Of a stretch of DNA of 28,584 bases, positions 160-27,885 are shown one piece after another (within the stretch, counting starts at the first letter, position 1; every line of letters begins with the position of its first letter). This DNA comes from a virus. A program made the translations under genes and the position numbers. The stretch is taken from positions 1-28,584 of IMG/VR virus record IMGVR_UViG_3300049733_000101. The stretch is one strand, 5' to 3'. Below the pieces are notes generated by a model that was not told the DNA's origin, did not search any database, and worked only from the letters and a program-made list of their open reading frames with translations.

Positions 160-750
160 ATGCGGGCAGCCACCTTCGCTGGAATCGTTTCCGTTCTCAT
201 CTGCAGCTCACTCTCTGCCTACGCCATCCCTGTCACATACAAATACGTGGGGACGCCATTCACGGAAGTCGGTGGGGTAAATGATGAGCCTTCAGCCTTC
301 AGCACATCCGACTTCATCACGGCCACGGTCATCTTGAATCTGGCGTTGGGTACACCCGCCACAGACATCGCGCCCGCTTGGTGGAAAATGAAGACCCTGG
401 CTACCGGCTGGGGTCCCGGTGGCAGCTTCGAGAATGATAGCGATTGCAGCCTGTACGGAAGTCCGGACTGCGAGTGGTTCAATCGATCCGAGTTCACCGT
501 TGATGCCAACGGCAACATCACCGACTGGGATCTGTACTTCGAAACCTATTTCTACCCGTACCTGGCATTGGGAATTTCCAGTCACGGCGACTGGGCCTTC
601 GAAGATCAGGATGGTGGAACCTATGGGGCCAACGGGACGCCTGGGACGTGGTCGCTGGTCGCGGTACCGGAACCGGGCACGCTCATGCTACTCAGTCTCG
701 GGCTGGCCTTAATTCCCGGCCTTAGCCGCACCGTGCGAGTCCGAAGGTAA
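160..750 (+). CDS. PEP-CTERM sorting domain protein
   Basis: A 196-residue exported protein. Residues 1-22 form a Sec signal peptide with a likely cut after SAYA. The C-terminus, from about residue 169, has the PEP-CTERM layout: VPEPGT, a hydrophobic helix (LMLLSLGLALIPGL), then an arginine-rich tail (RTVRVRR). In this family exosortase (EpsH/XrtA type) recognises the tail and removes it in the inner membrane, releasing or anchoring the protein in the envelope or exopolysaccharide. The body (23-165) is acidic and rich in aromatics and glycine, with one Cys pair near residues 96-103, and matches no enzyme I recognise. The gene is convergent with the lysis operon and overlaps its last gene by 29 bp. 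It may be a host gene at a prophage edge or a phage-carried cargo gene. An exosortase gene would be needed elsewhere in the cell. Confidence 0.85.
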   Translation: MRAATFAGIVSVLICSSLSAYAIPVTYKYVGTPFTEVGGVNDEPSAFSTSDFITATVILNLALGTPATDIAPAWWKMKTLATGWGPGGSFENDSDCSLYGSPDCEWFNRSEFTVDANGNITDWDLYFETYFYPYLALGISSHGDWAFEDQDGGTYGANGTPGTWSLVAVPEPGTLMLLSLGLALIPGLSRTVRVRR

Positions 751-1120
751 AGATCCTCTTTAACTGGCAGCCGATCCCGTTGCGTTTCTTCGTCGCCGCG
801 TCGAAGAGATCTTTATACGTTCTCGCCTTGTCGCGCTCCAGATCGCGTTCGCGCTCGATCGCAGCGTTCAATGCCTTCTGCGCCTCAATTTCTCGGGCGG
901 CTACTGCGCGTTCCCGGTCCCCGAGTTCGCGCTCACGCTCGAGCTGATCGACAGCCAGGTTCAGCCGGACGCGAAATTCCCCAAGCTCGAAGAGTCGCAG
1001 TAAAATCTCGCGTTCTTCATCGGGCGTGAATGGCTGTTCATTTGTCGGGACCTGTCCGTAGCTCGGCCAGCACAGCACGAATACTAGGACGCAGTTCGCT
1101 AATCGGAACCTGTAAAACAC
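722..1120 (-). CDS. exported coiled-coil protein of the lysis cassette (possible outer spanin)
   Basis: A 132-residue protein with a probable GTG start at 1120. GGGAGG sits 8-9 bases upstream, and the next residues form a signal-peptide-like segment (CVLVFVLCWPSYG, about residues 10-22). From about residue 28 to 105 it is a charged coiled coil rich in E and R (many RERE and ERD runs). It ends in a basic, hydrophobic tail with two cysteines (GCQLKRIFTFGLARCG). It overlaps the 3' end of the inner-spanin gene by 83 bases in another frame, as Rz1 genes overlap Rz. However, no clean lipobox precedes either N-terminal cysteine and the protein is not proline-rich, so a classical lipoprotein Rz1 is not supported. 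It is the last gene of the operon and its stop lies inside the convergent PEP-CTERM gene. Confidence 0.6.
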   Translation of the reverse strand: MFYRFRLANCVLVFVLCWPSYGQVPTNEQPFTPDEEREILLRLFELGEFRVRLNLAVDQLERERELGDRERAVAAREIEAQKALNAAIERERDLERDKARTYKDLFDAATKKRNGIGCQLKRIFTFGLARCG

Positions 1121-1457
1121 GGCTGTTATCCTCCCGAGCCCGCGCTTCGATCGCTCCCAATTGCGCCCGATATTGAGACTCGGCCGCGGACCGGTCGCGC
1201 GTAACCGCCTGGCGCTCCGTGGAAACGCGGGCCAGCATCGTCGCGATCTCATCGCGTTGTTTCGCAATCGCGGCCTCGCGCTCGGCCCATTCCTTTTGTT
1301 TCGCGGCTTCGATTTCCTCGGCAGCCTGAAGTCTGCCGCTCGCGATGCCCTGGTTGTAGGCGCGGTTCGTCGCGTAGCGATAGGCGAAGAGCAAAAGCAG
1401 AATCAGCGCTCCGGCACCGGCGAAGCGCCAGTATTTGACGAGCCATAAAAGCATCAT
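1038..1457 (-). CDS. inner-membrane spanin-like protein (Rz-like)
   Basis: A 139-residue protein with one N-terminal transmembrane helix (about residues 10-26, RFAGAGALILLLLFAYRY) and a long periplasmic coiled coil (about 40-115, rich in A, E, Q and R). It ends with a short proline-containing tail (VPISELRPSIRAVLAEL). This is the topology of Rz-type i-spanins, which link to an outer-membrane partner and fuse the two membranes at the last step of lysis in Gram-negative hosts. The start is one of two adjacent ATGs at 1457 and 1454. The first overlaps the upstream stop as ATGA, which suggests translational coupling. An in-frame extension to 1568 would run inside the upstream gene and is not used here. 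The assignment rests on topology and context, not on recognised sequence similarity. Confidence 0.75.
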   Translation of the reverse strand: MMLLWLVKYWRFAGAGALILLLLFAYRYATNRAYNQGIASGRLQAAEEIEAAKQKEWAEREAAIAKQRDEIATMLARVSTERQAVTRDRSAAESQYRAQLGAIEARAREDNSRVLQVPISELRPSIRAVLAELRTGPDK

Positions 1458-1699
1458 GGTTCCTTCGGTTTCTCGGCGTGACCGTTCGCCGACCATCGGG
1501 ATTTGGATATAGCATCGACGAGGCTTTGCCCTCCGATCGTGAAGAAGCCCGAGAAGCCCACAATCCATAAGGCATTCGTAGCGACTTCGTTCGGTGTGCC
1601 GAGCTTCGTCGTGACGGTGACGAGAGCGAGAACTCCGAGAACAACGACGACGAAGGCGAGAATTTTGCGCGAGCGCATACTAGGCCTGACGTCTGTCAT
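1454..1699 (-). CDS. small membrane protein with two TM helices, holin candidate
   Basis: An 81-residue protein with a basic N-terminus (RPSMRSRK), a first hydrophobic helix at about 12-30 (ILAFVVVVLGVLALVTVTT), a second at about 42-60 (NALWIVGFSGFFTIGGQSL), and a charged hydrophilic tail (KSRWSANGHAEKPKEP). Size and topology match class II holins, which form the inner-membrane lesion that starts lysis. It lies between endolysin and spanin genes and overlaps the genes on both sides by ATGA. Because two other membrane proteins are encoded nearby (2336-2470 and 2467-2769), which one is the holin and which might be an antiholin cannot be decided from sequence. Confidence 0.6.
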   Translation of the reverse strand: MTDVRPSMRSRKILAFVVVVLGVLALVTVTTKLGTPNEVATNALWIVGFSGFFTIGGQSLVDAISKSRWSANGHAEKPKEP

Positions 1700-14820: not shown

Positions 14821-15495
14821 TTAACTGACGAGTTCCAATTCGCTCTCGATGAGCCCCTCGATCGCTAAGGTGGACTCGACGAGGCGCGTGATCGCCAGCT
14901 GGGCTTCGATCGGCGGCTGCGGCGGAAGAATCGCCGCGCCGATCCAGTTCGTTATTGCGGGAACCGTTGTTGTGAGTACGCCATTCTCGGTTGCAGTTGC
15001 ACCAATGAAGGACGTGACGGCCGGAACGGTCGCACTGAAACTTCCGATGCTGAAGCTGAAGCCGACGAGCGCGGTCGATGCTGGAACCGTCGTCGCGAAA
15101 ATCCCTGCGACAATCGAACTCCCGACGAAAGCGGCCGTGGCCGGAACCGTTGCCGTGAATGTCGCCGTGGCAATCGAACTGCCGACAAATCCGGTTGTCG
15201 CTGGAACCGTCGTCGTGAACACGCCGGCCGCGATCGCCGCCCCGACGAGAGCGGTATCGATTGCCCCCGTCGTTTGGAGAACGCCGCTCGCGATTGCGGC
15301 GCCGACCAGGCTCGTATCGGCTGGAGCGGTTGCCGCGAATCCACCCGTCGCGATCGCTGCCCCAACAAGCGAGGTCGCTGCCGGAACGGTAGTACTGACT
15401 TCTCCTGCTGCAATCGCCGCCCCAACAAAGGACGTCGTGACGGTAACGGTAGAAGTGAGAACGCTACCGGATTGACCGAATAGTAAGAGCAGCAT
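14821..15495 (-). CDS. 20-residue tandem-repeat protein
   Basis: A 224-residue protein made mainly of nine imperfect 20-21-residue repeats (residues 15-195) of the form TTVPA-x-T-S-[LF]-VG-AAIA-x-G-x-[FL]-x. It has almost no charge in the repeat part, which suggests a beta-solenoid or a stacked, fibre-like surface. The head is hydrophobic (MLLLLFGQSGS) and too short to be called a signal peptide with confidence. The tail (IEAQLAITRLVESTLAIEGL, then IESELELVS) is acidic and helical and may be an oligomerisation or attachment element. It starts directly after the upstream TAA. I recognise no family name. A head fibre or decoration role is inferred. Confidence 0.65.
   Translation of the reverse strand: MLLLLFGQSGSVLTSTVTVTTSFVGAAIAAGEVSTTVPAATSLVGAAIATGGFAATAPADTSLVGAAIASGVLQTTGAIDTALVGAAIAAGVFTTTVPATTGFVGSSIATATFTATVPATAAFVGSSIVAGIFATTVPASTALVGFSFSIGSFSATVPAVTSFIGATATENGVLTTTVPAITNWIGAAILPPQPPIEAQLAITRLVESTLAIEGLIESELELVS
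14911..15453 (-). repeat. nine in-frame tandem repeats of about 60 bp
   Basis: The nine 20-residue protein repeats correspond to 60-bp DNA units, one copy having a 3-bp insertion. Key features per unit are a conserved ACCGT[TC]CCxGC (TVPA) and the GTxGGxGC (VGAA) region. Third positions differ between copies, so the repeats are old or held at protein level. The array is prone to copy-number change. Confidence 0.75.
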
Positions 15496-17889
15496 TTAAC
15501 GCAGGATTCTTCCGCGCCCGAGCTGGTTCGGCGTGACGACGAAGTCTATGGTGTCTGATCCGGCTGCTGTCGTATACGTCAGAGTGCGCACGCCTGGCGC
15601 GGCTGTCGTGGTCAGCGTCAAAGTGACTTCAGCAACCGTTCCGCTGATGACGTTCACGCTTCCAGCGCTGACGCCGGACCCGCTAACCGAAACGCTCGGA
15701 CTCATTCCGTCGAGATCGGTTCCGTTGATAGTGATCACCGGTGCATTGCCGCGCAGGCCCGTTGTCGGTGAGATCGAAGTCACCGACGGCCCCGCTGGCC
15801 CCGTGATCGTGAACGGCAGCGGGTTGCTGGTCTTTGTTCCGCTATCCGTCACAACTTTGATATCCCAATCGCCGAGGGTCGCGCCCGCAGTCGCAGCGAT
15901 ATCCACGGTGAGCGCACTGTCCGAGGCAATCTGTAGATCAGAGATGGTGACGCCACTTCCGCCGGATTTGGTTGCGGTCACCTGGGTCGAAGCTCCCATG
16001 TCTGACCCCAGGAAGCCGAGGCCCGTCAGAGCGGCATTGTTCGTCGTCGTATTCTGTGCGCCAGTGTTCGGCGTCAGGCCTTCCAGGTTCAACTGTGGGT
16101 TGCTCGTTAGTGGGTGCGGATAGGTGTACGGCGTGTAGAAGAGCGTCCACATATCCGTCGCCGTGCATTTGTACATCCGGCCATCGGCGCCAGCATTCGC
16201 CGCCCACCATTCACCTTCATCAGTCGCCCAATACATGACGCCCGTGGTGCACGTCTTCGGTCTGGCGCCAATTGTGCCGACACCGATGCTGCTGCGATTG
16301 GCCGCGATCGTTCCGTCGAACGTCAGTGATGAATCGTAGTCTAAATAGTGCTCATTTTTTCGCGTCACGGATGGCGCAGAATTGTTTGTGAGGATGTTGG
16401 CGCCGCCTTCGCCCGTGTTCAGCCACTGCAGGACCGGAAAGTCTTCCTGATTGTCACCACCTTCGGTCCAGCCCGCCGGTACAGGGGGCTGCGTGTTTGC
16501 ATCGCCCCCGGTAATCAGAGCGGTCGTCGCGCCCCGGCCGGGCTGATCCAGGGTTTCACGAAGCTTGTTGATTTCGAAGGTGTCGCCTGGGCTGAATACC
16601 ATGTTCGCGCCCTGGCCGCCAGAGTTCGCAAAGGTGAGCGTCGTGCCAGTGTTCGATGTGATGATCGAGTGACAATTGACCTTGTCTTTACGAGTTGGAC
16701 ACGTATCCGCGCCGGATGGAGACAGCTTACGAATGACATAGTTCGTCAGGTCGCCGAAGTTCGCATTATCGACGGTGACACTAAGAGTTCCAACCGAGTC
16801 GACCGCGCAAGTCCGGCTTGGACATTCCGCGCTCACATCGAAGGGACTGCCTGGATCGTTGTGGTCCCATTTGCCTTTGCCGCTCGCATAGTCCCACGGA
16901 CCAAAGTCGGCGGTCGGCCGGTACGGATCCAGTTGGACAGGTGAGCCATTTCCCGCGCCTGAAAAGTTCGTGCCCGTATTCCCCCACACTAGAGCGGAAC
17001 CACTGCGAAGGAGCACGAACTGCGGGTCGCCGTTCTTGAGATCCCAATTCAGGTTTTTGTAGACCTCGAACGCTCGGCCGCCACGACGCCGACCGCCGGA
17101 GTCCGTGCCATGCGTGACGAAGTTGCAGCCGGTAATGATGTTGAACCGCCAGACGACACGCTGGCCGTCCGTGCCATCCAGGCAAGCTCGGCCTTGGCCG
17201 TCATGGATGATGGTATTCGTTTCGATGAATAGAAATTGCGGACCGCCCCACGTGACACCGTCGAACCAGGAATTATCGCCGCCATTGATGGCGGGGATTG
17301 TGTCGACACCCTTCCAGTCCGGCTGATGTGTCGCGAAAGCTTGATGCGCGGAGCCTGTTGCGGTCAGGCGAAAGATATTTTCATAGAAGACACCGAGTGC
17401 ATTTGTGGTCCAAACGCTAATGCCTTCCAGGTGATCAAATTCGTTATGGTGGACGATGACGGTCGATTGAATATTCCCGCCGCCGCTGTCCGCTGCGCCA
17501 TCACCGTTGAAACGAATGACGCCGTTGAAGTTGAATGTGGACCGGCCGCCATTCTCAAATTCAATATAGGCGAGTTCGTGTGTGGCATTGTCGGTGAGCG
17601 TCCACACCAGTAGGCCATTTTGTGCGCTCGTGCCGTCCTGAATAACCGTCTGCCCGACGCCCGCACCCAGAATCTTCAACGGCTTCGTGATCGATACTGG
17701 CGTCGACCATACTTCCGGTGCGCCAGAAGACACATGCACTGTATCGTTCGGACTGGCATCTGTGACGCACTGCTGGAAGCTCGCGCGGTCCGGCGTCGTC
17801 GTCCACGTCGGGCTGGACCCCGTGCAGGCGGCCTCGGCGAGGACGGCGCCGAGGAACAGCAGCACGACTGTGGCAGCGATACGCTTCAT
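15496..17889 (-). CDS. exported beta-helix protein with TIG-like domains
   Basis: A 797-residue protein. The ATG at 17889 is used because it overlaps the upstream TAA as TAATG; an in-frame TTG at 17898 is the alternative. It starts with a Sec signal peptide (MKRIAATVVLLFLGAVLAEA, cut before ACTG). Residues about 40-330 read as a right-handed parallel beta-helix: SFQQCVTDASPNDTVHVSSG, then repeated short strands with N and G turns (TVIVHHNEFDHLEGI, FIETNTIIHDG, WRFNIITGCNF). This is the fold of pectate-lyase-like and phage depolymerase proteins. Two Ig/TIG-type domains follow near the C-terminus (about 625-705 and 708-788: PSVTSISPTTGLRGNAPVIT, INGTDL). Catalytic residues are not recognised. 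A secreted depolymerase, adhesin or appendage role is possible; the signal peptide makes an ordinary tailspike less likely. Confidence 0.7.
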   Translation of the reverse strand: MKRIAATVVLLFLGAVLAEAACTGSSPTWTTTPDRASFQQCVTDASPNDTVHVSSGAPEVWSTPVSITKPLKILGAGVGQTVIQDGTSAQNGLLVWTLTDNATHELAYIEFENGGRSTFNFNGVIRFNGDGAADSGGGNIQSTVIVHHNEFDHLEGISVWTTNALGVFYENIFRLTATGSAHQAFATHQPDWKGVDTIPAINGGDNSWFDGVTWGGPQFLFIETNTIIHDGQGRACLDGTDGQRVVWRFNIITGCNFVTHGTDSGGRRRGGRAFEVYKNLNWDLKNGDPQFVLLRSGSALVWGNTGTNFSGAGNGSPVQLDPYRPTADFGPWDYASGKGKWDHNDPGSPFDVSAECPSRTCAVDSVGTLSVTVDNANFGDLTNYVIRKLSPSGADTCPTRKDKVNCHSIITSNTGTTLTFANSGGQGANMVFSPGDTFEINKLRETLDQPGRGATTALITGGDANTQPPVPAGWTEGGDNQEDFPVLQWLNTGEGGANILTNNSAPSVTRKNEHYLDYDSSLTFDGTIAANRSSIGVGTIGARPKTCTTGVMYWATDEGEWWAANAGADGRMYKCTATDMWTLFYTPYTYPHPLTSNPQLNLEGLTPNTGAQNTTTNNAALTGLGFLGSDMGASTQVTATKSGGSGVTISDLQIASDSALTVDIAATAGATLGDWDIKVVTDSGTKTSNPLPFTITGPAGPSVTSISPTTGLRGNAPVITINGTDLDGMSPSVSVSGSGVSAGSVNVISGTVAEVTLTLTTTAAPGVRTLTYTTAAGSDTIDFVVTPNQLGRGRILR

Positions 17890-18665
17890 TATTGCCAACC
17901 CGCTCCGAACCAGCCGACGCCAGCTGTCGGAGGGGCTTCCTTAAATCCAAACTGGACTCCGATGTTGATCGCATCGACGGTTGAAGTAGTAGAGTGCGTC
18001 CGGCTTCCCGTCGCGGCCCCACTACTGGCACCCGAGTAGCCAAAGATGGAACAGTCCGTACCGGTAGGCACTTCCAGATCCCATCGATTCGTATATGTCG
18101 GATCAGTCCCAGATATCGAACCGGCCGTTGTTAGATCCTCGTTGTAAAATCCAATAGCAACGACAAAGGCATTTGTTTCTGTTGGATCAAAAGTGGCATA
18201 GGTGACGTCATCCGCTGAGGCGTTATTGCTGATCGATTCCGCTGTTGCATCCAAAGCATCCGCGCAGGTGCCCGTTGTCAATGCTCCAGACCATTGGCTG
18301 ATGACTCCAGCGAACAGTAGATTGTTATCCGTTGATTTCGTGAAACCAAACGTATCGCCGTCTGCATCGTCGCCCGTGGCGCGGGCGCAGGCGAGCGTGA
18401 ATCTCTGATTCGCGGTATTGTTGCCCTCGGCAAAGATCGTCCACGCGCCCATGTTCCCCTGGGCGCCTGGCGCGGTAATCTGCAGGTTATCCTTTCCGTT
18501 GATGGCCGCGATTAGAATGTCGTTGGTTGCATAGCCCGTGCCCGGAGACACGATATTCAGCGTCGTCGTCGTCGCGTTCCCTACAATGGATCCGACGCTT
18601 TTGAATGCAACCGCCGCGTCTAAACGAGCGGCCAACAGCAAAATCAGGAACAGTATCTTTTTCAT
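17889..18665 (-). CDS. exported beta-rich protein of the late operon
   Basis: A 258-residue protein with a signal peptide (MKKILFLILLLAARLDA, cut before AVAFKS). The mature part is a beta-sandwich-like text with GYATNDILIAAINGKDNLQI (about 46-65), AWTIFAEGNNTANQRFTLAC, NAFVVAIGFYNED and a G/S/T-rich C-terminus (YSGASSGAATGSRTHSTTST). Similar domains occur in phage and bacterial surface proteins, but I cannot name the family with confidence. Its start overlaps the stop of the upstream gene (ATGA) and its stop overlaps the start of the beta-helix gene (TAATG), so the two exported proteins are translationally linked. Confidence 0.65.
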   Translation of the reverse strand: MKKILFLILLLAARLDAAVAFKSVGSIVGNATTTTLNIVSPGTGYATNDILIAAINGKDNLQITAPGAQGNMGAWTIFAEGNNTANQRFTLACARATGDDADGDTFGFTKSTDNNLLFAGVISQWSGALTTGTCADALDATAESISNNASADDVTYATFDPTETNAFVVAIGFYNEDLTTAGSISGTDPTYTNRWDLEVPTGTDCSIFGYSGASSGAATGSRTHSTTSTVDAINIGVQFGFKEAPPTAGVGWFGAGWQ

Positions 18666-19010: not shown

Positions 19011-20420
19011 CTACGGTGCGCAGAACCCTTGAATATCTAGGCCGTGTGCAATCGCGCCAGTCGTGGTCACCGAGATTAAAGTTGCGGAGTTTGTTTGTTT
19101 TTTAGGCGTCGTAAAAGATATGGCTAAGCCGCGGCCGGCAACCGCCTCGAGATAGTACGGCCCGAGGATCGTCGTCGTCGTACTGTCTTCGATCTTGATG
19201 CTGGCGGCGGTGGCAGCATTCGTCGAAAAAACGATGTCGGTGATGTAGTTGAACTGGCCCGTTCCACATGAGGCATGAACGGTTGTATCCGTGAGCGCGC
19301 TCGACGAGTCCTCGTGATAGGTCCACTGTGTCGGATGCTGCCCGGTGTTCATCACCGCGCCATAGCGGTCCAGCGCCATCATGGCATAGCGACCATCGGC
19401 ACCTGAGGCTTCATACGCCGGCGTGCCGTCCGCATCATTGCGCACGCCGAGGATGGCGACACCTCTATCTGCTGTCGTGTGGGCGGTATCCTCGTCCTTG
19501 CCCAGATGTGTGGCGCCGTTGCCGGGATTGACGCTTGTGCCGATCGTCGCGATATTGCCGGTCGAGTCGTTCGCGAGTGTGACGCGCTGCACACCAGTAC
19601 CGGCCGCGCCGTTATTCATCGTGACCGCCACACCGTTCATTTGCGCGACGTTGAAAGGTTCGTTATCGGGGAAAGCGCCGACGGTCACCGTACCGCTCAC
19701 GGGCTGCGTCGTTGCACTTGCATCCACGACGAGCGCGTTTCCTGCAGTGACATTAACGCCGCGTTCATTGCCGGCGGCGTCCCGGATCGTCGTATATTGA
19801 TTTCGGTTCGCCGACATCCGCAAAAACCCGAAATTATTCTCCGTGATCGACGTCGGCGTAGTGTCGTCGAACACACCCGCAGCGGCAGTATTCAGTCCAG
19901 CATTCGCTGAGGCGCTATTCATCGTTGAGACCGGCGCCGTCGCGGATAGCGGATTCACCGAGAACGCCGTGTTATCCGAGGCGATTGTCACGCGCTGGCT
20001 GCCCGTGCCCGTCACGCCATTGCCTGTCGCGATACCCACGCCGCTGATCGTATTAACATCAACTTCGGCGCGCCCTGATGCGTTGACGCGCAGGTCTCGG
20101 ATATTGCCCGATCCCTCCTTGCCTGCGATCCTGACCGGGTTTCCAGTGGCGGCCGCCCCATTTGCATCCGGTCCGGCCACAATGCAGCGCGTATCGGTTG
20201 CGCACACTACAGAATCCGAGTTCACGCCCGTCTGTGGCCCGCTCGGAGTTGCAGAAATTGCAGAGACGTTGACGTGCTGGTTGCCATCGGTGACAGTCGC
20301 GCAGTTCGTGATCGTCGTGGAATCACACGGAATCGTCGGCTGAGTCGTTGTCAGCTTTTGAGGCGCGACCGCTGGCAGAAGCGGCAGCATTGCAAAGAGA
20401 ATTTCTATAATCAGATTCAT
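19011..20420 (-). CDS. exported G/T/A-rich phage surface protein
   Basis: A 469-residue protein with a probable signal peptide (NLIIEILFAMLPLLPAVAP, residues 2-20). The mature chain is low in charge and rich in T, A, G, V and N, with recurring beta units of the type GTGVQRVTLANDSTG and GTGSQRVTIASDNT, and NPVRIAGKEGSGNIRDLRVN. These units are common in phage fibre and appendage proteins that begin with similar N-terminal modules. Four or five cysteines (PCDSTTITNC, VCATDTRC, ASCGTG, GFCAP) suggest disulfides, which fits export. GAGGTAA lies just before the ATG. The exact role is unknown; a surface-exposed or virion-appendage protein is inferred. Confidence 0.65.
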   Translation of the reverse strand: MNLIIEILFAMLPLLPAVAPQKLTTTQPTIPCDSTTITNCATVTDGNQHVNVSAISATPSGPQTGVNSDSVVCATDTRCIVAGPDANGAAATGNPVRIAGKEGSGNIRDLRVNASGRAEVDVNTISGVGIATGNGVTGTGSQRVTIASDNTAFSVNPLSATAPVSTMNSASANAGLNTAAAGVFDDTTPTSITENNFGFLRMSANRNQYTTIRDAAGNERGVNVTAGNALVVDASATTQPVSGTVTVGAFPDNEPFNVAQMNGVAVTMNNGAAGTGVQRVTLANDSTGNIATIGTSVNPGNGATHLGKDEDTAHTTADRGVAILGVRNDADGTPAYEASGADGRYAMMALDRYGAVMNTGQHPTQWTYHEDSSSALTDTTVHASCGTGQFNYITDIVFSTNAATAASIKIEDSTTTTILGPYYLEAVAGRGLAISFTTPKKQTNSATLISVTTTGAIAHGLDIQGFCAP

Positions 20421-21929: not shown

Positions 21930-22406
21930 TTACGGCGTCATGTCGACGACGCGATACCACACTTCGATGTTCAGGTCGGAATCACCGGTCGTGATTTCAC
22001 CCACGAGCAGGTGCAGCACGAGCGCGGCGCTGTCTACCGGTGTGATTGCTGAATTGAGAGACGCGGCGCGATGGCCCTGGACGAACCGCACCTGGTTGGT
22101 AGTTTGATCGAGGAAGCCGGTCGTTTCACACTGCGCGACTTCCGCCCCGGATCCATCGGTATACTTCACCGACAGATCTTCGCCGGCAGCGATACCGCCA
22201 TATGCCGTACCGGAAGGCTTTCGAATGACGGCACCTTCGAAAATATTGGCGAGGCCGGCACCAGGCGCCGGAACGAGCTCGCGCGGCGTCGCATTGAGCG
22301 CGAGCAACTGCGCCGCGGTAATTGTGACCTTTCGGCGGAAGATCCGAAATTGAGCGCCATCGATCTCGCTGCCGAACACGGGCTTGTTGTTTTCAATGAC
22401 TGGCAT
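21930..22406 (-). CDS. probable head decoration / capsid accessory protein
   Basis: A 158-residue protein (MPVIENNKPVFGSEIDGAQF...). The start at 22406 is fixed by AAAGGAG 8 bases upstream; a longer frame to 22451 would run into the terminator stem. The text is beta-rich (RKVTITAAQLLALNATPREL, LVPAPGAGLANIFEGAVIRK, AYGGIAAGEDLSVKYTDGSG) and continues with LVLHLLVGEITTGDSDLNIE. The phrase LLALNATPRELVPAPG is typical of a family of small phage proteins found next to capsid genes. It is the first gene after the terminator, probably expressed at a lower level than the capsid protein. Confidence 0.6.
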   Translation of the reverse strand: MPVIENNKPVFGSEIDGAQFRIFRRKVTITAAQLLALNATPRELVPAPGAGLANIFEGAVIRKPSGTAYGGIAAGEDLSVKYTDGSGAEVAQCETTGFLDQTTNQVRFVQGHRAASLNSAITPVDSAALVLHLLVGEITTGDSDLNIEVWYRVVDMTP

Positions 22407-22430
22407 GGACTTGACTCCTTTCCCAAAAGG

Positions 22431-22459
22431 AAAAAGGGGTGGAAGGCCCACCCCTTTTT
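22431..22459 (-). terminator. intrinsic terminator after the major capsid gene
   Basis: AAAAAGGGGTGG (22431-22442) and CCACCCCTTTTT (22448-22459) form a perfect 12-bp stem with a 5-base loop. Read on the minus strand the G/C-rich stem is followed by UUUUU and then CC. It lies 19-47 bases after the capsid stop codon and just before the ribosome site of the next gene. It should make transcription drop after the capsid gene. The palindrome also works on the plus strand. Confidence 0.85.
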
Positions 22460-22477: not shown

Positions 22478-23953
22478 TTAGAGACCGGTCACACTACAAA
22501 TTGCCGCAGGACGGAAAACGACGAACGCATCGCGCATGTCAGCGCGGATCGTTCGCTTGCCTTCCTTGAATTGATCGCCAACGTAGCCGACCTGCACATC
22601 GATGCCGCGGCGCTCAAACAGAGACATCCACTGCGGCAAGGCCGAGATCACATAGCCGGTGCCGGCCGAATCGATGTCGCATTGCACGACTTGCAAACCC
22701 CACATACGTTCCGGGCCTGCTTCCGATGGATTGCCCCAAATGTAGATGCCGTCCGCCGTTCGCAGCAAACGCACGGATTCCCAATTGGTCGGATGAATAA
22801 TGTGATGCGTGGGCATGACCCGGCCCGTCACCCGCAGCTTCGTCATGGCCTTGAAGAACGCGTCCGGAATCGGATCGGCGCCCTTTGCCTGAGTCTGGAT
22901 CCCAACGATATTCTTGATGCCGCGCAGGTTCGGCGCGCTGCCGTCACCGATGAGCACCTGCGTATCCAGGCGCTGCCGCAGGCCGAAGGTGAGGCGGCCG
23001 TTGACGTAGCTGGATACGAACGGCACATCTTCCAACTGTTCATCCGTGACCGGCAACGAATCGGTAATCTTGCGGACGCTGGATTCACGCTCCGTCAGCG
23101 CGAACGCAGACTCAGCAAAAGCCACGCCTTCTGCTTTTTCTGCCGCAGAGTGCGTGCGCGTGGTTTCCTCCATGTAGACCACTTTTTCCATGCCGGTCTG
23201 GCCCATCGGCAGGATGTCGAGCAATTGAATCGGACGAGTGACCTTATCGACAACGAGACCAGGAATACGGATGGATTCCGGCGCCCAGCCGGCCGTCGTT
23301 TCCATCAGCGTCTTGAAGTGTGCGCCTGCCGCCAGTATGTCGCTTGGCCACAGATCCGGGAAGTTCATCACGAGGCCGGCAGCGTCCTTCCGCCGCTCTT
23401 TGATGAAATGCTGCACGTATTGGTCGTTGGTGATCAGGTCGCCGATCGCCTTGATTTGCTTCTGCCGGCGATCGCCCATGTCGGGATCCGGATCCGGATG
23501 GCGCAGGCCCTTGAGCCTGTCGAGTGTTCCGGCGGCCTTCTCGGCTTCGACCAGTTTCATGCACTCATCGTGGAGATCGTTGAGTTCGGTGTTCATACTG
23601 CGCACCTTCTCGGCGATCGCCACGGTGGTCAGGCCTGTACCGAGGCAGGCGACCTTCCGGAAATCCAGTTCGCCGGCGGGCGTCTTTGCCTCTTCGAAGA
23701 CCTTCTCGAGTTCCTTTTGCTTCGCCTCGAGTTTCTTGCGCGCCTCAATCAACGCGACATTTGGCACGATCGCCAGCACCGTACCGGCTTCGCCGGCCGT
23801 CGTAGCAGCGAACGTAAAGACTGTCAGAATCAGCATGGCAATAAGCACCAAGCCGAGACCGAAGAGCATGTTCGGATTGTGAACGGGCGTCGCCGTGTAG
23901 CCGCGGCAGCACTCGAGCGCCCAAATTCGCTTTTTGTCGGATTTTGGAATCAT
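22478..23953 (-). CDS. major capsid protein, HK97 fold, with N-terminal transmembrane segment
   Basis: A 491-residue protein. AGGAG lies 9 bases before the ATG at 23953. From about residue 205 the text follows HK97-type capsid proteins: LMETTAGWAPESIRIPGLVV, DKVTRPIQLLDILPMGQTGM (N-arm and E-loop start), KVVYMEETT, then PVTDEQLEDVPFVSSYVNGR (spine helix), VLIGDGSAPNLRGI, HHIIHPTNWESVRLLR, GLQVVQCDIDSAGTGYVISA and the C-terminal RTIRADMRDAFVVFRPAAI. Residues about 64-190 form a charged coiled-coil delta (scaffold) domain that the prohead protease would remove. Unusually, residues 29-51 are a strongly hydrophobic helix (MLFGLGLVLIAMLILTVFTF AAT), preceded by a basic, Cys-containing stretch. It would anchor unprocessed subunits in the membrane. 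No good internal start downstream of this helix is visible. Confidence 0.9.
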   Translation of the reverse strand: MIPKSDKKRIWALECCRGYTATPVHNPNMLFGLGLVLIAMLILTVFTFAATTAGEAGTVLAIVPNVALIEARKKLEAKQKELEKVFEEAKTPAGELDFRKVACLGTGLTTVAIAEKVRSMNTELNDLHDECMKLVEAEKAAGTLDRLKGLRHPDPDPDMGDRRQKQIKAIGDLITNDQYVQHFIKERRKDAAGLVMNFPDLWPSDILAAGAHFKTLMETTAGWAPESIRIPGLVVDKVTRPIQLLDILPMGQTGMEKVVYMEETTRTHSAAEKAEGVAFAESAFALTERESSVRKITDSLPVTDEQLEDVPFVSSYVNGRLTFGLRQRLDTQVLIGDGSAPNLRGIKNIVGIQTQAKGADPIPDAFFKAMTKLRVTGRVMPTHHIIHPTNWESVRLLRTADGIYIWGNPSEAGPERMWGLQVVQCDIDSAGTGYVISALPQWMSLFERRGIDVQVGYVGDQFKEGKRTIRADMRDAFVVFRPAAICSVTGL

Positions 23954-23958
23954 GGAAT

Positions 23959-24945
23959 TTAGCTCCTGTTGGATTGCCGCGCGGCCTTCGTCGAAATCTC
24001 GAGGAACGCGGCGTATGCTTTCTCTGCATCTGTACCGGTATCCGGAGACGTTTCCGTGAGGAATGCCCCAAGATCGGCGTGAAGAGTGTTCAACCGGTCC
24101 CAGTTCGCACGCGATAGGGCCCGGCCTTCTTTCTCGCGTCGGGCAGAGCGCACCTTACTCCGACGTTTTAGCTGCTCGATTGCGTTCACCGCAGAGTCGA
24201 GATGTTCGGCGTAGTCGAGCCCTTTCAGGCTCACTACAAGATCGAGTTGAACTTCCTGCCTATTCGACAGCGTCACGCTGCCGTCTCCATTCAACGTCCA
24301 GTCGAATTGATAATAAGAGTCGAGCCACTGCGTCCCGTCCCACTTCATGCTGACGACAATGATCGTGTCGTCGAGTGTGGCCTCGAGGTAGCAATATGGA
24401 TCGTTAAGGACTGTACTGGCGGCGTTGCGCAGTGCGCGTTGAATCGCTTCCCAGCTGCCGGCCACCTCGGCCCAGGCCTTATTGCCGCGCTTTTTGACGG
24501 ATAATGTGCCGGTATCGATGCCGGCGCCGAGCAGGACCGGCGAGACTTCGATGACGCGGAGTTCCTTCAGGAACAGAACGCGCTCCCCTTTGAATTCGCC
24601 TTTATCGGACTTTTTGATCTCGTAGCCGTAGCTGTATTCCTGTAGCGGTTTGCCCGCGTCAAAATCGAACTTGATCGCCGAATACCACTTCTGCGCGTCC
24701 GGGATGTCGAGGTTGAAGCGCATCTTGGCAACGACGTCGTCGCCCTTCTCGCTGATCACGGCGCGTCCGAGCGGAACAGAGCCCCAGTCGTGCGTCGGCA
24801 CAATTTGCGCTTCCTGCTCACCAAAGGCACCCTTTAACGTGACGTCGCCATCGTGATCTTTCACGTTAAGCGTGGCAATTACGGCCGACACCTCGCCTTT
24901 AGCGTCGTCAATTGACTTGATTCGAAACGTCTTCGTCAGCTTCAT
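23959..24945 (-). CDS. HK97-type prohead protease with scaffold-like extension
   Basis: A 328-residue protein from the ATG at 24945 (GGAG 6 bases upstream); in-frame ATGs at 24957 and 24972 are alternatives inside the portal gene end. The protease part (1-150) shows the U35/S78 pattern: VIATLNVKDHDGDVTLKGAF, the catalytic His in PTHDWGSVPLGR (H52), the serine in LQEYSYGYEI (S105), and the conserved ELRVIEVSPVLLGA (E133). It would cleave scaffold and the delta domain of the capsid protein. Residues about 160-250 form an additional alpha/beta domain (SWEAIQRALRNAASTVL, IIVVSMKWDGTQWLDSYYQF), and about 260-328 a helical, basic tail (RREKEGRALSRANWDRLNTL) like that of fused protease-scaffold proteins. 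The gene follows the portal and precedes the capsid gene. Confidence 0.82.
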   Translation of the reverse strand: MKLTKTFRIKSIDDAKGEVSAVIATLNVKDHDGDVTLKGAFGEQEAQIVPTHDWGSVPLGRAVISEKGDDVVAKMRFNLDIPDAQKWYSAIKFDFDAGKPLQEYSYGYEIKKSDKGEFKGERVLFLKELRVIEVSPVLLGAGIDTGTLSVKKRGNKAWAEVAGSWEAIQRALRNAASTVLNDPYCYLEATLDDTIIVVSMKWDGTQWLDSYYQFDWTLNGDGSVTLSNRQEVQLDLVVSLKGLDYAEHLDSAVNAIEQLKRRSKVRSARREKEGRALSRANWDRLNTLHADLGAFLTETSPDTGTDAEKAYAAFLEISTKAARQSNRS

Positions 24946-26176
24946 TGTCGTCTCCATTGATGGGCTTTCCATCTGGCGTTACGAGAATCATGTTCGGATT
25001 CATGATGTAGACTTCGTCGTCGGCCGTTACCGGCAATCGGACGCCGCGCCGCGCCTCACTGCGCTTGATCCAGCCGCCACGCACGCCGATATCGAGCCGG
25101 CGCGCCCGCTCGACCTCGTTCTCCTGGAGCGCCTGGACCATCGCTTCATCGAAGAAACACTCAAACGTGTCCGGATTGCCTTCGAAGTCCACTAGTAGTT
25201 GATTCTCGAGATCGCCGGCCATGGCGTGTTGCATCGGAATGATTCCGCTGATCCAGGCGAGTTGCACGAGTTCACGCATCGTCGCCCCAACTTTCGTTTG
25301 CTGCAGGCCGCTCCCGAATCCAACGACGGCGGCCGGAATACCGAGAATTGCGCAGACTCGCTCTTCCGAGACATCGCGGACGCTCGAGAGTTCCAATTGC
25401 GCCGGCGACCAGGCGAACTGATGCACGTCCGTCGCGCCGCGCATGACGATGGCTTTGCCGCGGCGGTCGCCGCCAAAACGTTGATCAAAGATCTTTTCTG
25501 CATCCTGCGCATCAGTGGCACTGATGCTCGTGGTCTTCGGCGAGATGATCACGCCCGGCACGCCCATATTGCGCAATAAAGAAGCCGTGAAATTCGAAGC
25601 CTCGTCGTCGCTGAAGACTTCCCGAAGGACGGAATGGAGATCAGACATGCCCAGCCGCGGATTACGCGGATCCAGGCCGTTGCGAAGATGAACCACTTCC
25701 GATACCGGCACATCGACGGCCTGACCGCCCACCATGTATTCGTAATGCGTGATGAATTCGTTCTTCGCTGGATCGTGCTTTGGCGTCATCAACCAGGGCG
25801 GAATCCACCAGAGTTCAGCGACGCCCAGGAGCCGGCTTCGGACTTTGAGCCAATAGGCGTTGCCGTCGAGGATGTAGCAGGCGATTGTCGCGCGCCAGAG
25901 CGCGTTGCCGCTGTAGTGCGTATTCGGGTGCGCAATCAACCGAACCAGCGCATGATCCTCGACCACACTGTCGAGTTGAAATTTCTTGCGGATTTTGAGT
26001 GGCGCTTCCGGGAAGACGCGCTGGATGAACTTGACCGGCGCCATCACCACGGAGGAGCCGTAGCCGCGGCCGACTTCGCGCGCGTAGTCGTACTTCGTGC
26101 GCGGAAGCAAGCTGAAGATGGCGGCCGCGCCGGCGTGGATCATCCGCGAAAATGCTTTTCGCAGCCACTGGATCAC
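24908..26176 (-). CDS. portal protein, HK97 family
   Basis: A 422-residue protein starting with GTG (26176) in a GTGA overlap with the terminase stop. It follows HK97-type portals: an N-terminal basic helix, ALVRLIAHPNTHYSGNALWR (about 76-95), DGNAYWLKVRSRLLGVAELW (about 104-123), DVPVSEVVHLRNGLDPRNP (about 155-173), NMGVPGVIISPKTTS, then ERVCAILGIPAAVVGFGSGL (about 273-292) and QQTKVGATMRELVQLAWISG, all characteristic positions of the family. It forms the dodecameric ring through which DNA enters and leaves and to which the tail is attached. Its C-terminus is acidic (NGDDNEADEDVSNQVN) and overlaps the protease gene start region. Confidence 0.88.
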   Translation of the reverse strand: MIQWLRKAFSRMIHAGAAAIFSLLPRTKYDYAREVGRGYGSSVVMAPVKFIQRVFPEAPLKIRKKFQLDSVVEDHALVRLIAHPNTHYSGNALWRATIACYILDGNAYWLKVRSRLLGVAELWWIPPWLMTPKHDPAKNEFITHYEYMVGGQAVDVPVSEVVHLRNGLDPRNPRLGMSDLHSVLREVFSDDEASNFTASLLRNMGVPGVIISPKTTSISATDAQDAEKIFDQRFGGDRRGKAIVMRGATDVHQFAWSPAQLELSSVRDVSEERVCAILGIPAAVVGFGSGLQQTKVGATMRELVQLAWISGIIPMQHAMAGDLENQLLVDFEGNPDTFECFFDEAMVQALQENEVERARRLDIGVRGGWIKRSEARRGVRLPVTADDEVYIMNPNMILVTPDGKPINGDDNEADEDVSNQVN

Positions 26177-27885
26177 CAGGTCTCACCCGCGCCGACTGGA
26201 ATGAAATCGTCTTTCTGTTCGGTCTCAGCCGGCTTCGCTTCATCCGTCGAGGACCCAACCGGGCCCCAGCCGGATTGCAGCGCGCCGGCCTTGATCGCAT
26301 CGTTACGCGCTTCGTTCGATAGTACGCCGGCCATGGCTAAATCAATTTTGTTTGGCGAATCCGATCGCTCTTTTTCGATCAGCCAAAGCGCCTTACCGGT
26401 ATCGGCGTCTTTCTCGTTCAAGTACCGCTTGTGCGCGTTGCCGATATGCCGCGCGAGATCGCCGTTTCCGTCGTGTGAGAGCGCGCCTTCCTTGATCGCC
26501 GTGTCATAGGCTTCGAGCGCGTAACTCATCGGCTTGCGCCGGTTCGTCCACCATTCGATAAATACCTTATCGCCGTACTCCCCGGCCCATTTGGAAACCC
26601 AGCTTTGCCAGTACGGCGGGTCCGCGTAGACGCGAATCACGTTGTAAGCCTGAAAGAGCGCCCGGAATGTGTCGTCGACTTCATGCGCCGGCACGCGCCA
26701 CTCTTTTGCTTGTGTTCCATACGGGCATTCCCAAAGCCCAGGCACCCACTGAAAGCCGGTTGCGAGATGTGTCGCAACAATCCCAGTACTATCGTCGGTC
26801 TGCGAACCGTCAAAGCCGAGCGCGATTGAGTCGCCCGGCTGAACCGGATTCGGCGCGCGCAAGGATTTGAATTTCTGAACGTCGAACGCCTTCCGCGTTG
26901 AGCGCATCAGCCGGTTGCAGTAGACGCGCGCCGCGTAAGCCAAGTCGGTCGTTGGATCAGCGAAGAGTTGCACAATCGATTCAATATCGCGCCAGACCGC
27001 AGCTGGGCCAGAAGCCTCAATCACTGCGGCCCGGACGGCTTCTTGATTTCGAAGGTTGTACTTCGCCGGCGTCTCTGCCTTGATGTCGTAGCGCTCGTCG
27101 GCTTGCCGGTGAAAGAAAAAGAGGCGCTCGTCTTTAACCTTACCGCCGTCGACCTGGCGCGCGTATTCAAACGTCGCCTCAGCAACAGACCCGCTACCGG
27201 GTTCCGGTGCCGTAGTTGTTTCGAGCGTCCAGGCGTCGGCGAGTTTTCGTTTGGGAATATTGGCCAACATCGTCTGATGCGCGCGCTTCAGTCGCTCGAG
27301 CGTCCACCAGTGGGTTTCATCGCAGACTTGGAATGTCGTCCGCGCACCGTCTCGTGCATTCGGCGCGCCGGCAATAGACACAGCCTTTCCGTCGCCCTTG
27401 GCCCGCATGATCCGATCGAGACCGATATCGAAATCATTCACAAGCGGACTGTTCTCGAGAACGGCCTTGAGTGCACCGTAGCAGAGTTCGTCCGACTGCT
27501 CTTCCGTGTAAGCCGACAGGACAATGAAAGGATCCGTCACCGGTCCACCGATCGGCTCGCTACCCTTCCAGCCGACGCAGCGGACCGGCGCGCTCGGATG
27601 TAGCTCGGCGGCGGCAATCCAAGCCGCGAATTCCGTCTTCGCCGTTCCCTTCGCGAGCGAAATTCCGGCACGCTTGAATCGGCGTCGGCCGGCTTGCGGA
27701 TGTTTTTTCGGAAAGACTTCGTAAAGCCGCCACACGAGCCAGCGCTTTTCATCGTCGAGCTTCGCCGGCAGTCCGCGGAGATCGCCCGGCCCGTAAACAA
27801 GATTTTCTTCGATCCATTGACAGACTTGCGCGCCGAGGCTCGGCCAGACTTTCCGGCGGTCATCCGGAACCATCAGCACGCTCAT
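26173..27885 (-). CDS. terL: terminase large subunit
   Basis: A 570-residue DNA-packaging motor. The ATPase part shows a Walker-A-like loop SLAKGTAKTE (76-85) and Walker B VCDE (186-189) with the following THWW. The RNase-H-like nuclease part carries acidic residues at GFDGSQTDD (D358), YADPP (D421) and NKIDLAMA (D514), as in TerL of HK97/P27-like phages. It would cut concatemeric DNA and pump it through the portal. The Walker A is unusual (S-L-A-K-G-T-A-K-T, no GxGKS). The N-terminal segment (WIEENLVYGPGDLRGLPAKL) fits other large terminases. The start overlaps the HTH protein stop (ATGA). Confidence 0.9.
   Translation of the reverse strand: MSVLMVPDDRRKVWPSLGAQVCQWIEENLVYGPGDLRGLPAKLDDEKRWLVWRLYEVFPKKHPQAGRRRFKRAGISLAKGTAKTEFAAWIAAAELHPSAPVRCVGWKGSEPIGGPVTDPFIVLSAYTEEQSDELCYGALKAVLENSPLVNDFDIGLDRIMRAKGDGKAVSIAGAPNARDGARTTFQVCDETHWWTLERLKRAHQTMLANIPKRKLADAWTLETTTAPEPGSGSVAEATFEYARQVDGGKVKDERLFFFHRQADERYDIKAETPAKYNLRNQEAVRAAVIEASGPAAVWRDIESIVQLFADPTTDLAYAARVYCNRLMRSTRKAFDVQKFKSLRAPNPVQPGDSIALGFDGSQTDDSTGIVATHLATGFQWVPGLWECPYGTQAKEWRVPAHEVDDTFRALFQAYNVIRVYADPPYWQSWVSKWAGEYGDKVFIEWWTNRRKPMSYALEAYDTAIKEGALSHDGNGDLARHIGNAHKRYLNEKDADTGKALWLIEKERSDSPNKIDLAMAGVLSNEARNDAIKAGALQSGWGPVGSSTDEAKPAETEQKDDFIPVGAGETW

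Follow-up and report, generated by a model that had tools for sequence, protein, structure and literature searches.

The delta domain of HK97-type major capsid proteins (MCPs) lies inside the procapsid (PMC3185693). HK97 gp5 and the MCP of Pseudomonas phage D3 (annotated from locus position 934, MSDFEKQIGELNASL) both begin at this N-terminal domain, which is removed by a phage protease encoded adjacent to the MCP. In phage T4, prohead assembly begins on the inner membrane via a separate membrane protein, and a 2011 review gives T4 as the only phage for which membrane association of the prohead had been demonstrated (PMC3185693). Virions of Mesorhizobium phage vB_MseS-P1 have been purified, and mass spectrometry found 15 virion proteins, including g5, which occupies the MCP position (PMC11409702). 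The window analyzed here, a 28,584-nt stretch of viral DNA (IMG/VR record IMGVR_UViG_3300049733_000101, positions 1 to 28,584), encodes an HK97-type MCP with a signal-sequence-like module ahead of its delta domain. As far as we found, this module is a variant without an earlier description in the literature searched; no paper on an MCP whose N-terminus is a signal peptide or spans the membrane was found, subscription papers and preprints aside.

The head genes of the window are all on the minus strand and follow the ordinary arrangement: terminase large subunit (TerL; 26173..27885; PF20441, phrog_9), portal protein (24908..26176; PF04860, 5.3e-45), S78 prohead protease (23959..24972, 337 aa; PF04586, phrog_80) and MCP (22478..23953, 491 aa). 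The protease is directly upstream of the MCP, and its stop codon falls 5 nt before the MCP start. It has an apparent extra domain at about residues 165-260, which is also found in L005, a contig from a separate metagenome. A small protein follows the MCP (21930..22451, minus) both among the window's open reading frames (ORFs) and in L005; a head decoration role would be a guess. The MCP matches PF05065 (Phage_capsid) over residues 244-488 (E 1.2e-26, 94.2 bits vs a cut-off of 24.2) and phrog_10 (6.4e-32). An AlphaFold model made from a 58-sequence alignment (mean pLDDT 79) has the HK97 fold beyond residue ~240, and the top Foldseek matches of this model are the D3 prohead (E 2.7e-22) and HK97 prohead I (E 1.8e-21). 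A helical delta domain lies between the N-terminus and the capsid domain. By fold and gene order the protein is a member of the HK97-type family, and it has all the defining features open to testing here.

The MCP carries an N-terminal extension of ~64 residues. The MCP family profile, aligned with full-length HK97 gp5, begins at gp5 residue 6 and spans its delta domain; thus, the extension precedes everything that HK97 gp5 has. Residues 1-19 (MIPKSDKKRIWALECCRGY; 23897..23953, minus) form a basic, conserved N-terminus that is identical in L005 at 18 of 19 positions. The model places a helix at residues 5-16, within the stretch of residues 1-62 that is of low confidence except for a helix at 28-51. 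The hydrophobic helix that the original prediction placed at residues 29-51 (23801..23869, minus), immediately ahead of the delta domain, is real. Hydrophobicity and charge were computed by script. For residues 30-48 the Kyte-Doolittle mean is 2.64 and the plain sum on the Hessa biological scale -3.55, as expected of a membrane-type helix; both the model and L005 agree. TerL, portal and protease of the window have a hydrophobic maximum of 1.71 anywhere, clearly below the MCP helix. A linker (residues 52-64; 23762..23800, minus) then leads to the delta domain, and it is in this linker that relatives start, as judged from the alignment and their start sites. The delta, or scaffold, domain (residues ~65-213; 23315..23761, minus) was delimited from the model and the HK97 profile alignment and has coiled-coil helices at 66-89 and 110-150. 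By alignment, cleavage is expected near residue 213, and the mature capsid domain would comprise residues ~214-491 (22478..23314 with the stop codon, minus). The good ribosome site claimed for the MCP start was confirmed by direct reading, as AGGAG (23963..23967, minus) 9 nt ahead of the ATG. L005 has its own site, AAGGAG, 7 nt ahead of the ATG.

The MCP of L005 is 78% identical to that of the window and retains the entire extension in frame, with one codon added. Three further contigs (L002-L004) have an MCP gene identical to the window's and add no independence. Between the window and L005, codons 1-19 differ by seven synonymous and one nonsynonymous changes (Fisher p 9e-6), and codons 1-28 by 13 and eight (Fisher p 3.8e-6; pS 0.70, pN 0.12, pN/pS 0.17). 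Codons 1-28 are under purifying selection. When the three forward frames were compared, only the MCP frame was stop-free in both sequences with synonymous divergence well above nonsynonymous. The helix differs at 8 of 21 residues, and its hydrophobicity is 2.56 vs 2.57. In a neutral simulation, random mutation at equal load gave a mean hydrophobicity of 1.37 and reached the observed value with p = 0.011. The substitution pattern and the simulation indicate that the MCP is translated from the ATG and that the helix has been maintained as a hydrophobic helix.

These comparisons bear directly on whether the extension could come from an error of sequencing or assembly, or from intergenic DNA that became fused in frame without selective effect. 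In most relatives, 55-400 nt of non-coding DNA separate protease and MCP (5 nt in the window; an overlap of 17 in L005), so intergenic DNA would be available for such a fusion. However, an independent lineage keeps the extension with the low pN/pS given above, the three further contigs are identical, and the same architecture arose elsewhere. An artefact is already contradicted, would need a read-level error common to two metagenomes, and is in our estimate most improbable. A version of it, named with the original prediction as something that would overturn it, is that the helix is a separate small protein joined to the capsid gene by a sequencing error. L005 keeps the in-frame fusion independently, which speaks against this version, and in relatives the interval from protease to MCP contains no small membrane ORF.

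The same N-terminus was looked for in related capsid genes. It is present in L005 (and in the identical L002-L004), but ~75 other MCPs from IMG/VR and GTDB genomes (39-66% identical) do not have the helix. They start near window residue 55-75, mostly after a good ribosome site, and no stretch in their delta region exceeds about 1.2 in hydrophobicity. Among IMG/VR and GTDB contigs, residues 1-79 of the window MCP have no other match, and named phages and plasmids gave no significant match to residues 1-64. Two candidate extended relatives were rejected: in L089 the upstream frame is open by chance and encodes no hydrophobic segment, and in L138 the upstream frame is interrupted by a stop. The capsid and delta regions of Sinorhizobium phages StopSmel and Aussie and Microcystis phage Mwe-Yong1 are 57-58% identical to the window MCP, with the match running from window residue 85. 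In StopSmel, the annotated MCP has room for only ~22 residues upstream of the match, and hence no extension. Relatives that start after residue 60 had been put forward as grounds for dropping the predicted helix; nearly all relatives do start there, but the extension is lineage-specific and the helix is not refuted by them.

The starts of these distant relatives raise the question of whether functional translation of the window MCP also begins near residue 59-63, at GTG codons, with the upstream part being a separate product or a minor one. It is there that all distant relatives start, L005 shares the GTG at codon 59, and synonymous divergence falls to low values around codons 50-65. Against this, neither GTG has a ribosome site ahead of it, codon 63 is GCG in L005, the ATG and its ribosome site have been conserved, and selection on codons 1-28 acts in the same, stop-free frame. 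Internal ATGs in the vB_MseS-P1 group, described below, likewise lack a ribosome site. Equally low synonymous windows occur elsewhere, and the dip at codons 50-65 is not exceptional, either as a mark of an internal start or as a hidden element. We give an internal start little credence.

N-termini of this kind are not confined to the window lineage. We surveyed PF05065 matches from 299 genomes (phylum of G001) and 195 genomes (phylum of G003) and inspected 104 MCP frames at their N-termini. At a Kyte-Doolittle segment threshold of 1.9, which was our own choice, three MCPs exceed it (L228, L218, L235) and three are near it (L221, L213, L191). Hydrophobic N-termini are therefore found in 3-6 of 104 MCPs, and some resemble textbook signal peptides. 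One search of named phages found vB_MseS-P1 (PP232116.1), whose annotated MCP starts MTRNIDRIFAFGLLGCIALAAALVFIGVDPVSAHAGT and has a segment with a Kyte-Doolittle value of 2.74 directly ahead of the delta domain. Among its IMG/VR relatives, 18 have a segment of at least 1.9 (L262, 263, 266, 277, 278, 281, 285-289, 293, 298, 300, 308, 314, 323, 332). Start sites were inferred from ribosome sites, and most of the analogous N-termini have their own. Several pairs show purifying selection on the N-terminus (p 1.3e-6 for L285/L298; 3.7e-5 for L266/L314). Signal-sequence-like N-termini immediately ahead of the delta domain can be seen in L258:754-2100, L262, L266, L278, L285, L287 and others, and in the prophage MCPs L228, L235 and L221, all of MCP lineages unrelated to the window's. 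In the vB_MseS-P1 group, an AHG/AHA motif recurs past the hydrophobic core.

The module is also missing from close relatives of MCPs that have it. L264 and L265, members of the vB_MseS-P1 group at up to 83% identity, start at the delta domain after a strong ribosome site. L264 is 83% identical to L258, and Acidovorax phage Aval, also without the module, is 69% identical to L228. The module is dispensable, because these close relatives (Aval, L264) have the same kind of capsid protein without it. We built a FastTree tree of 194 MCP cores from core columns only, leaving the N-termini out. The trait needs 18 changes on this tree, of which well-supported branches force at least 10, although FastTree is a quick method, some branches are long and the exact count is soft. 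The window and L005 are a pair nested in a supported 20-row set whose other 18 rows do not have the trait, and the module of the window lineage appears to have arisen independently. The MCP-core tree does not sit easily with a single origin. Signal-sequence-like helices have been gained or lost repeatedly on HK97-type MCPs, mostly in phages and prophages of Pseudomonadota.

The layout of a signal sequence is a basic N side, a hydrophobic core of 18-22 residues and a less basic C side. The window MCP has this layout, with a net charge of +3 before the helix and -1 after it, and a basic N-region 28 residues long. In 20 of 20 measured MCP N-termini, the N side has a net charge of +1 to +3, and the net charge over the first 20 residues past the core is 0 to -3. 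This is the design of a signal sequence and not merely that of a buried helix, and its recurrence points to contact with the membrane-insertion machinery. The positive-inside rule predicts an N-in/C-out orientation for such N-termini, that of the window MCP included.

One reading of the N-terminus is a true export signal. It might serve a minority of the MCP or another purpose, such as late membrane disturbance or a superinfection effect, with a fraction of the MCP or a cleaved peptide going to the membrane or periplasm and most MCP folding too fast for export. Many of the measured N-termini have acceptable signal-peptidase (-3,-1) sites past the core (VSA|H, ATA|H, VMA|H, AQA|A), which is the classic layout, although these motifs are short, loose and easily met by chance. 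Hundreds of hydrophobic peptides would also be freed per head at maturation. But exporting a major structural protein would be costly, and the 28-residue basic N-region of the window is unusually long for a cleavable signal. We regard an export signal as decidedly unlikely.

The main rival to membrane targeting is an oversized internal scaffold. The helices would bundle in each capsomer, or hold the protease or portal, and would be cut away with the delta domain without involving a membrane. The delta domain to which the helix is fused is internal to procapsids (PMC3185693). The delta region is enlarged, from 119-165 residues in relatives to ~212 (211-212), in the window lineage only, and the protease there, too, exceeds the usual length (337 aa vs a typical 240-265 aa in relatives). 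However, the signal recognition particle is expected to catch 20-residue stretches as hydrophobic as the MCP helix, and the charge layout found in all 20 N-termini would be unnecessary for an internal part. In the vB_MseS-P1 group the proteases are alike beside MCPs with and without the helix, and we found no membrane segment in the adjacent proteases of either kind. A purely internal scaffold seems to us unlikely, if not strikingly so.

The reading we prefer, tentatively and at somewhat less than even chances, is that the module is a targeting signal to the inner membrane that is removed with the delta domain. The MCP precursor would consist of a signal-sequence-like module (a basic N-terminus, a hydrophobic helix of ~20 residues and a neutral or acidic flank) fused before the delta domain. 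Through the module, MCP that is nascent or newly made would reach the inner membrane at its cytoplasmic face. Precursors would thereby be concentrated where procapsids are to assemble, possibly with a membrane-bound portal at the center. Full translocation would be blocked, perhaps by folding of the long coiled-coil delta domain and by capsomer formation. The prohead protease would discard the module along with the delta domain at maturation, and virions would be without it. Several points count against membrane targeting. An N-in/C-out orientation would export the capsid domain, a tether on each subunit would clash with the geometry of a shell whose delta domains are internal, close relatives do without the module, and model confidence is low for residues 1-62 outside the helix. 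The original prediction had the helix tether the procapsid to the membrane until the protease cut. Its premise of a membrane-type helix before the delta domain holds, and the helix is under selection and recurrent, but a simple tether of the shell to the membrane does not fit, because delta domains lie inside procapsids (PMC3185693) and the predicted orientation is N-in/C-out. Because of these obstacles of orientation and geometry, we favor targeting of nascent or unassembled precursors over tethered procapsids. Membrane tethering is plausible, if unproven. The module does not prevent head assembly, since vB_MseS-P1, with an analogous MCP, makes virions. The broadest form of the targeting proposal is possible but doubtful: that many HK97-type phages of Pseudomonadota repeatedly gained an MCP signal sequence, and that in these phages it is the MCP itself that nucleates procapsid formation on the inner membrane, a route that would be new for tailed phages.

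Exported proteins encoded downstream had been taken as a hint of envelope-linked assembly. Three ORFs of the structural operon, between the head and tail genes, do have signal-peptide-like N-termini (19011-20420, 17889-18665 and 15496-17898, all minus), but nothing links them to the MCP, and the idea has little support. The C-terminal half of the protein from 19011-20420 resembles hypothetical proteins of Microbacterium phages. The 800-aa ORF among the three had no family match, and 15496-17898 and 17889-18665 have no IMG/VR relative beyond one identical contig, so that the exported-type ORFs cannot be connected with the capsid. A match to an Rz-like spanin, the ordinary siphovirus gene set and the virions of vB_MseS-P1 also count against envelope-linked assembly. 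The spanin match, a weak one, is in the lysis region, where the frames 722-1267 and 1038-1568 (minus) overlap in an arrangement typical of nested i-spanin/o-spanin genes; it speaks for ordinary lysis. Elsewhere in the window, the opposite-strand gene 160-750 (plus) has, besides a signal peptide, a PEP-CTERM sorting motif (PF07589), which is unusual in a phage and may be a prophage host flank or a captured gene. Beside the head-tail connector gene, 14821-15495 (minus) encodes a hydrophobic, low-complexity protein of 224 aa with about nine TTTVPATTxxVGAAIA-type repeats.

Capsid precursors in phages of this kind may reach the cell membrane before assembly, something demonstrated in hardly any tailed phage. 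MCPs with their own signal-sequence-like helix make the question directly testable in vB_MseS-P1, which is cultured and inducible. If MCP precursors do reach the membrane, the view of where HK97-type heads assemble changes. If they do not, a protein that is abundant and bears a strong signal sequence must somehow avoid the export pathway, which would also be of interest. A practical side effect is that such MCPs may be mis-called as secreted proteins in genome annotation.

Compared with the described systems, the window MCP is closest to those of HK97 and D3, which are its best Foldseek and profile matches. They share its fold and a delta domain removed by the neighboring protease; unlike the window MCP, they have no hydrophobic N-terminal module before that domain. 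The MCPs of vB_MseS-P1 and its IMG/VR relatives do have a signal-sequence-like hydrophobic N-terminus directly before the delta domain. However, they belong to another MCP lineage, and their N-region is 5-8 residues long vs 28 in the window. Their extension is without sequence similarity to the window's, and the tree suggests an independent origin. The major coat protein of filamentous phages, pVIII, also has a membrane helix, but its fold is unrelated and its assembly is by extrusion (PMC3185693). In T4 the prohead is initiated on the inner membrane by a membrane scaffolding protein with the connector. Unlike in the window, that protein is separate from the MCP (PMC3185693). The likeness is one of working only, and by that analogy T4 would be the nearest functional precedent for an MCP that is itself brought to the membrane.
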